Assembly (NCBI GenBank): GCA_028687575.1
Contig: JAQTZW010000001.1
Coordinates: forward strand, 294,098 to 358,097
Reading direction: 5' to 3'
Source of the DNA: Gallionella sp.
GTDB lineage: Bacteria > Pseudomonadota > Gammaproteobacteria > Burkholderiales > Gallionellaceae
Length of the DNA: 64,000 nucleotides
Shown: positions 4,588-64,000 of the stretch, one piece after another
Layout: each line of letters starts with the position of its first letter
Position numbering within the stretch: position 1 is the stretch's first letter
The notes under the pieces: generated by a model
What the model saw: the letters and a program-made list of their open reading frames with translations, nothing else
Told to the model about the DNA's origin: nothing
Databases searched by the model: none
Made by a program: the position numbers and the translations under genes

Positions 4588-5414
4588 GTACGGCAGTACA
4601 TCGCCATCCCGACCCGGCTTGGCGTGGACGCGTGATCGGTGCGTTGCTGCTGGCCGTGCTGTGCTGGCCGATGCTGGTCTACACCGAGTTCAACCCACTC
4701 ACCCTGCTGGAAGCGCAGAGCCTTGAGGCGACCTGGCGTTTCCTGTCAGACTTTTTTCCGCCGGCGCATTCGGCAGAATTCCTGATGATGGCGTTGCAGG
4801 CGACCTGGGAAACGGTCGCCATCGCGACCGCCGGCCTGACGTTGGCCTTGCTGGGTGCAGTGCCGCTGACCCTGATGGCGACTTCCATAGTGTCGGTTTC
4901 GCAACTGGAAAGCGGGCGGATGCGGCTGGCTGGCCGCTTGCTGCGGCAGGCGGTGCGCTGGCTGCTGGTGTTGCTGCGCAGTGTGCCGGAACTGGTGTGG
5001 GCCTTGCTGTTCGTGCGCATCGTGGGGTTGGGGCCGACCGCCGGCGTGTTGGCCATCGCGCTGACCTACTGCGGCATGCTGGGCAAAGTCTATGCCGAGA
5101 TCCTCGAATCGTCCGACGGCCACGCGACCGCGACACTGCTTGAGAATGGCGCGGGGCGACTTGCCGCGCTGTGTTACGGCGCATTGCCGGAAGCGGCAGC
5201 GGAATTGCTTTCCTACACCACCTACCGCTGGGAATGCGCGATTCGCGGCTCGGTGGTGATGGGCTTCGTGGGCGCGGGCGGACTGGGGCAGCGCATGGAC
5301 GAATCGCTGAAAATGTTGGCGGGCGGCGAAGTCGCCAGCATGTTGCTGATCTTCGTGCTGCTGGTCGCCTGTGCCGACGGCATCAGTTCGGCGCTGCGCA
5401 AAAGGCTGGGCTAA
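4581..5414 (+). CDS. PhnE-type ABC transporter permease
   Basis: Hydrophobic, RSVPELVWALLFVRIVGLGPTAG loop typical of PhnE permeases. Confidence 0.87.
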   Translation: MLSTAVHRHPDPAWRGRVIGALLLAVLCWPMLVYTEFNPLTLLEAQSLEATWRFLSDFFPPAHSAEFLMMALQATWETVAIATAGLTLALLGAVPLTLMATSIVSVSQLESGRMRLAGRLLRQAVRWLLVLLRSVPELVWALLFVRIVGLGPTAGVLAIALTYCGMLGKVYAEILESSDGHATATLLENGAGRLAALCYGALPEAAAELLSYTTYRWECAIRGSVVMGFVGAGGLGQRMDESLKMLAGGEVASMLLIFVLLVACADGISSALRKRLG

Positions 5415-9834: not shown

Positions 9835-10005
9835 GAATGAAAGAAACTTCCCCAACCCGCAGGGGCAGTGAAGTTTCGGCGAGCGGCATCGAATGTGCCA
9901 CGATGGAATTTGCAGATTTCATCAAAACCGACGAGAGGGTGGAAGTGGCGGCATTATCACCGTCGGCATCGCGCTTGCCAAGATTGTTTTTTCGGTACAG
10001 GGGGT
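9835..10005 (+). mobile_element. Solo left end of an IS110-family element (copy A), transposase truncated after the N-terminus
   Basis: Aligns to 60807-60955 and 63881-64000; ends with GGCATTATCACCGTCGGCATCGCGCTTGCCAAGATTGTTTTTTCGGTACAGGGG (IITVGIALAKIVFSVQG, IS110 transposase N-terminus). Confidence 0.7.
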
Positions 10006-60806: not shown

Positions 60807-60955
60807 GAAAGAAAGGGATTTTCCTGTTCCGTCGGGGCGGTGAGGTTTTAGCGAACGGCAGCGAAAGTGCCGTGATGGAATTTGCAGATTTCATTAAAAA
60901 CAACGAGTGAGCAAAGTGGTGGGCATTATCCCCATCGGCATTGATCTTGCCAAGC
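60807..60955 (+). mobile_element. Solo left end of an IS110-family element (copy B), transposase decayed after GIDLAK
   Basis: Aligns to 9835 and 63881 copies; ends GTGGGCATTATCCCCATCGGCATTGATCTTGCCAAG (VGIIPIGIDLAK). Confidence 0.75.
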
Positions 60956-60985
60956 GCATGTAGGCGCGATTGGCGTAGCGTAGCC

Positions 60986-61234
60986 TTCTTCAAAGGCAAA
61001 GCGGGGCAAGAGAGTTATACCGAGCAGATGAAGCGACGCATCGACAGCGCCGAGGGACGTGCACGTTATGGCAGACGCTTCGCCACCGTGGAGCCGGTAT
61101 TTGGCAACCTGCGACACAACAAGCGGCTGGATCGCTTCACGTTGCGCGGGCGGAAGAAGGTGGACGGACAGTGGAAGTTATATTGCCTGGTACACAACAT
61201 CGAGAAACTGGCGCATCACGGCTATGCGCAGTAG
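60986..61234 (+). pseudogene. C-terminal fragment of IS1182-like (DDE) transposase
   Basis: FFKGKAGQESYTEQMKRRIDSAEGRARYGRRFATVEPVFGNLRHNKRLDRFTLRGRKKVDGQWKLYCLVHNIEKLAHHG; no N-terminal catalytic part. Confidence 0.8.
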
Positions 61235-61312
61235 GGAGTGAGAAAGGCAGCAATGCGGCTGCATTGAAGCGCAAGCATCGGAATATCGTCTGACATAAGA
61301 GAAGCGAAAAGT

Positions 61313-62759: not shown

Positions 62760-62822
62760 GCCCAACGTAAAAGTGAGGGGCTGCGCGCTTCTGCGCAGTC
62801 CCTCTCGACTGATGGGTTGGGC
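62760..62822 (-). repeat. Integron attC-like site 3
   Basis: GCCCAACGTAAAAGTGAGGGGCTGCGCGCTTCTGCGCAGTCCCTCTCGACTGATGGGTTGGGC. Confidence 0.92.
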
Positions 62823-63411: not shown

Positions 63412-63471
63412 GCCCAACGTTGGAGTTCAGAGGCCCGCCGAAGGCGGGTCCGCTGGAACGGATTGTTGGGC
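63412..63471 (-). repeat. Integron attC-like site 4
   Basis: GCCCAACGTTGGAGTTCAGAGGCCCGCCGAAGGCGGGTCCGCTGGAACGGATTGTTGGGC. Confidence 0.93.
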
Positions 63472-63879
63472 ATAGTTACACTCCTTTTCCAGCAATCCTT
63501 CTAGCGCTTCAATTTCTTCCCCAAGCCTTAGAAAATGAAGCGAATTTTTCTCGGCATCGAACTTTTCGGGGGCGTCCACAGCTGCCGAATCAGCACCATT
63601 GGCCTTTAAGTATTCGGTTATTGAATTGTGACCAAAATCAACTGCGACTCTCAATGGCGTAAACCCAAGCTCGCCTTGTTGATTTACGTTGATGCCATTT
63701 TCGACAAGTAGTTTTGCGGCCTCTAAGTCACCCCAGACACAAACGCAGTGAAGAGCGTTGTCGCCAAGTTCATTTGTGGCGTTGATAGAGTCAAATTTAA
63801 CGTAGCCAAAGTCAGCTGTACTTTTGACTTTTTTAAGTAACTCAACGACGCGCTCGTTCAGTGACATGGTTAGGCCCAA
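63427..63879 (-). CDS. Ankyrin-repeat protein, integron cassette gene; 3' end runs into attC
   Basis: NELGDNALHCVCVWGDLEAAKLLVENGINVNQQGELGFTPLRVAVDFG ankyrin repeats; likely ATG at 63867 (MSLNERVVELL); stop inside attC. Confidence 0.78.
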   Translation of the reverse strand: MGLTMSLNERVVELLKKVKSTADFGYVKFDSINATNELGDNALHCVCVWGDLEAAKLLVENGINVNQQGELGFTPLRVAVDFGHNSITEYLKANGADSAAVDAPEKFDAEKNSLHFLRLGEEIEALEGLLEKECNYAQQSVPADPPSAGL

Positions 63880-63880
63880 C
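63874..63880 (-). other. attC core (R') box GTTGGGC interrupted by an IS110-type left end
   Basis: GCCCAAC identical to the box at the two preceding cassette boundaries, followed directly by the conserved IS left end. Confidence 0.75.
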
Positions 63881-64000
63881 GAATAAAAGGGACTTCCCCG
63901 TCCTGAAGGAGCGGAGAAGTTACCGCGACCGGCAACAAAAGTGCCAAGATGGAATTTCTGGATTTCATCTAAACCTACGAGAGGGGGAAGTCATGAGCAT
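63881..64000 (+). mobile_element. Left end of an IS110-family element (copy C), continuing beyond the window; transposase ATG at about 63993
   Basis: Aligns with copies A and B over the full 112-bp noncoding region; ATGAGCAT aligns with the IS110 transposase N-terminus in A/B. Confidence 0.75.

Follow-up and report, generated by a model that had tools for sequence, protein, structure and literature searches.

The right end of the window (the whole 64,000 nt stretch of Gallionella sp. DNA analysed here) raises the question of what kind of mobile element has entered an integron cassette array, and what the structured noncoding sequence at its left end does. A preliminary description had placed an IS110-superfamily element exactly at an attC core box, and inspection of the window agrees: GCCCAAC (63874-63880) directly abuts GAATAAAAGGGACTTCCCC, and an ATG follows at 63993. 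The adjoining box corresponds to R′ box GTTGGGC on the minus strand, which is the cassette direction. The box belongs to a Gallionella-type cassette array. Also on the minus strand are the cassette gene next to the insertion (63427-63867) and two intact attC sites of the same array (63412-63471 and 62760-62822). An integron integrase is encoded on contig C9 of the same genome (467 bits).

The left noncoding end occupies 112 nt on the plus strand (63881-63992), and its first G (63881) is possibly shared with the target. The transposase gene begins with ATG AGC AT (63993-64000) and is cut there because contig C16, and with it the window, ends at 64000. Three other contigs of this genome (C9, C11 and C15) also end in the same left end, with approximately 120-127 identical bases, and the flanks to its left are GGCCCAAC on C16, GCCCAAC on C9, CTCATAAC on C11 and GCTCTACC on C15. 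A further contig, C25, opens with a matching right end of 127 bases, beyond which lies an attC-like remnant, and this right end carries a subterminal repeat, as does the left end in the window. Neither the element body nor a matching intact transposase was found in the genome assembly, and the guide and the right junction were consequently read in relatives. The sole complete IS110-superfamily transposase in the assembly (328 aa, C29; L009:518-1504) is unrelated, and its tree position is far from the attC-type elements.

Four contigs ending in one shared left end are what a collapsed multi-copy repeat would give. The lack of an intact matching transposase in the assembly, and the presence of truncated left ends both in the window and on three contigs (C3, C20 and C23), could alternatively mean that the copy at 63881 is a truncated left-end remnant and nothing more. 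We consider this improbable, because the four contigs share approximately 127 bases up to their ends, the right end with which C25 opens is exactly 127 bases long, and the window copy is complete as far as the contig runs, as judged by a covariance model. This model, which was built from 32 left ends including that of the window, scores 63881-63995 with 102 bits (E 5e-25). It also recovers the two other left ends that had been reported to align with this one, and both are degenerate: 9835-9947 (plus strand, after CTCTAAC; 73 bits) and 60807-60921 (plus strand, after a TTAAC box; 52 bits). Less than about 100 bases beyond the latter lies an apparent C-terminal fragment of another transposase (ORF 60941-61234), such that the region 60807-61240 resembles a nested remnant within the cassette region.

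Matches to the left end occur in 14 of 76 Gallionella genomes. Three intact copies in the genus span 1454-1493 bp and consist of a 110-nt left noncoding region, a gene for a 341-aa DEDD transposase, and a right noncoding region of 318-357 nt. The expected DEDD/Tnp20 enzyme is thus present in relatives, whose transposases match NF033542 (370 bits), PF01548 and PF02371, carry DEDD_Tnp_IS110 and Transposase_20 domains, and match the solved IS621 and ISCro4 enzymes in sequence. The frame at 63993 begins with MSI (MSIIT on C11 and C15), and homologues carrying the same left end have both PF01548 and PF02371. The relatives have subterminal inverted repeats, which read GAATGAA followed by GGGACTTCCCC on the left and GGGGAAGCCC followed by TTGTAG on the right. 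When the flanks of intact relatives are joined around one ambiguous G, attC-type sites are restored that fold with paired R boxes. In the genus copies with a visible left flank the element follows an AAC box in a single orientation, and the position relative to the attC box is identical; the one exception is a copy in a tRNA gene (see below).

Which subgroup does this layout indicate? The structured left end had been mentioned as a hint of the IS110 subgroup, where the guide is located in the left end (PMC11208160) and the left end is longer than the right. This assignment is not supported. Most of the wider relatives have a right end of 318-462 nt, compared with approximately 78-127 nt on the left, and they show the IS1111 layout, with subterminal inverted repeats and, judged by sequence only, a guide downstream of the transposase. 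Loops that match the target are found in the right end, which is also where the guide of the IS1111 group is located (PMC11208160). These loops correspond to the two-segment guide that has been reported for IS1111 elements (PMC11187229).

The guide assignment rests on 80 further relatives collected in a genome scan. Loop 1 of the right end (guide 1) copies the left target flank, of the CTAAC|GA type; examples are GACTAACGA for attC, CTAGAGAATGAG for a TTAGA target in Paraburkholderia and GTCAGCGAA for TCAGC. The observed match to the left flank was reached in none of 10,000 flank permutations. Loop 2 (guide 2) is complementary to the right flank, on the L-box side of attC (e.g. AGYTAA), and in seven elements all eight of its eight bases are complementary. 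Its mean match is 6.53 versus 5.62 (sd 0.13) for permuted flanks, again reached in 0 of 10,000. Kinship among the sequences can inflate such permutations, and the signal is carried by targets that differ between close relatives. A search of the Rfam database at an E value of 0.1 matched neither the left nor the right RNAs.

An analogous test of the left end, on either strand, gave no target-flank match beyond permutation, and the left end was rejected as a guide RNA for this reason. The idea that the bridge RNA is this structured left end, which would make the element an attC-targeting member of the IS110 subgroup, draws on the end's length of about 112 nt, its covarying fold and the left-hand guide of that subgroup. 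We find it barely credible, given that the flanks match two loops of the right end, that the subterminal repeats are long and that the right end exceeds the left in most relatives. Because the flanks match right-end loops and not the left end, the guide is placed on the right, as in the IS1111-attC group.

We therefore read the element, with a probability of roughly 0.9, as an IS1111-type, RNA-guided insertion sequence that targets attC and has inserted next to the R′ box in the attC site of a cassette. Its target, its layout and the guide position predicted in relatives assign it to the already known IS1111-attC kind. On a tree of the 80 transposases, elements with attC-like flanks do not form one clade, and at least eight changes between attC and non-attC targets are forced, a count that is indicative only since the target labels contain noise (the right flanks of L112 and L114 suggest attC, and L082 is perhaps not attC). 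One locus, L051, has two attC-type right ends approximately 1.2 kb apart (motifs at 5248 and 6445, minus strand), one beside an attC half and the other beside a degenerate flank.

The exceptional copy, on C15 (L012:7-185), interrupts a tRNA-Val(CAC) gene of the window's genome at the D-loop. Intact orthologues give the target as GCTCTACC/ACTGAGCTAAC in the orientation of the element. Neither the other half of the interrupted gene nor another tRNA-Val(CAC) match was found in this assembly. Within the target, TGAGCTAA is the exact guide 2 target in relatives L074 and L076, guide 2 of close relatives is identical to the D-arm (TTAGCTCA), and CTACC differs by one base from CTAAC. It thus seems that a guide of the attC type, as read in relatives, can also recognise a tRNA D-arm.

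If the left end is not the guide, what is its fold for? As had been suggested, the roughly 112 nt segment is structured, and it adopts a covarying multi-branch fold. The left subterminal inverted repeat GGGACTTCCCC (63889-63899, plus strand as for all leader features) forms the 5′ strand of a closing helix. Within this helix are hairpin 1 (GCGG/CCGC; 63911-63926), on which minimum free energy and covariation agree, hairpin 2 (GGCA/TGCC; 63931-63945) and hairpin 3 (AGATGGAATT/GATTTCATCT; 63947-63970). The 3′ strand is GGGGAAGTC (63984-63992), which is complementary to the left repeat (GACTTCCCC), lies just 5′ of the ATG and spans the Shine-Dalgarno sequence.

In a sequence-only alignment of the 32 left ends, 11 pairs are changed on both sides, and the covariation of 0.186 compares with 0.087 for shuffled alignments; sliding the partners gives nothing comparable. 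Searched against 59 further loci, the covariance model detects 38 left ends, all of which lie directly 5′ of a transposase, and the leader recurs in elements whose transposases are down to approximately 48% identical. In an alignment fitted to the model, 8 of the 10 closing pairs show changes on both sides. A similar fold also emerges when 26 distant left ends are aligned separately by sequence alone, and one closing pair there occurs as A-U, G-C and U-A. Covariation thus supports the fold predicted for the left end, which we regard as real and conserved and which looks like a transposase leader rather than a guide.

Complementarity between the repeat and the ribosome site averages 7.97, versus 5.95 (sd 0.22) on permutation and 4.33 for shuffled ribosome-site segments. 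Averaged over 15 elements, the predicted probability that the Shine-Dalgarno sequence is unpaired is 19%, and it rises to 42% when the leaders are shuffled. The window copy by itself shows a modest difference (0.22 against 0.38 in shuffles, 5 of 50 of which are as low). The fit is less clean for IS4321/IS5075, where the pairing is shorter and interrupted, and IS5708 pairs a segment other than the subterminal repeat. In IS5708 and a Klebsiella relative (L177:915-1000 and L178:915-1000), the pre-start segment pairs with the first bases of the element plus the left flank (AACGAAT/ATTCGTT).

Two further observations bear on the role of this leader. Joining the right and left ends brings a TTG-type −35 sequence to approximately 16-17 bases before a TAGGAAT-like −10 sequence in most elements, from which we infer that transcripts of the circle would begin near the left repeat. 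Furthermore, a mini-element of ISEc11 whose left end measures 50 bp is mobile if transposase and RNA are provided (PMC11187229), and therefore the greater part of the leader does not have to serve as a DNA end. Together with the leader fold, these points lead us to read the left end as a putative translational brake on the transposase. Judging from experimental papers on the family, transposase and right-end RNA would release the element in circular form and direct its insertion into a matching site. Under our proposal for the left end, a promoter formed at the circle junction would drive an mRNA starting at or near the left subterminal repeat. This mRNA would fold into the three-hairpin leader, and pairing of the repeat with the Shine-Dalgarno sequence would hold transposase translation low.

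Complementarity of the pre-start segment to the left repeat is conserved, and the segment resembles the right subterminal repeat. It might accordingly act at the DNA level, as a third copy of the repeat to which the transposase complex binds in autoregulation, with the RNA fold being secondary. This is conceivable but rather unlikely, as attC-type elements match the complement of the left repeat (GTCC) and not the right repeat (GCCC). The helix also contains G-U pairs and there is covariation in the inner hairpins, which favours an RNA structure over a DNA site. Translational control would be the likeliest function of the leader. More specifically, we give about even chances to an IS1111-family, multi-branch riboregulator in which the left subterminal repeat, a DNA end, doubles as an anti-Shine-Dalgarno sequence that limits transposase translation.

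Insertion of such elements should freeze integron cassettes, because the R′ box is separated from the rest of the attC site. Guides of this family are programmable, and the clade offers many natural retargeting events in which both guides can be read. A conserved leader would also provide a concrete step at which transposase production could be controlled in RNA-guided elements of the kind being studied as genome-editing tools.

Among known systems, the IS110 subgroup (IS621, ISEc21; PMC11208160, PMC11187229) shares with the relatives a DEDD recombinase with a Tnp20 domain, whereas the relatives have a right-end guide, a long right noncoding end and long subterminal repeats. The IS1111-attC group is represented by ISPst6, ISKpn4 and ISPa25 (Tetu and Holmes, 2008; Post and Hall, 2009; both as cited in PMC11187229). 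As described there, its members resemble the window element in targeting one end of attC sites and in having subterminal repeats, and they resemble the relatives in a guide RNA 3′ of the transposase, parts of which match the target on either side. The window element differs in residing in a Gallionella-type host, and it is likened to the group by target, repeats and guide position. The relatives differ in their conserved leader fold, which is the fresh part relative to known IS1111-attC elements: no IS1111 leader or Shine-Dalgarno fold was found described in the mainly open-access literature searched.

The proposed leader has its closest likeness outside this family. In the transposase brakes of IS10 and IS50, as proposed for this leader, the transcript contains sequence from the end of the element that folds over the ribosome site of the transposase. 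Only read-through transcripts are masked in those elements, whereas the fold proposed here would also form on the circle-junction transcript and contains further conserved hairpins.
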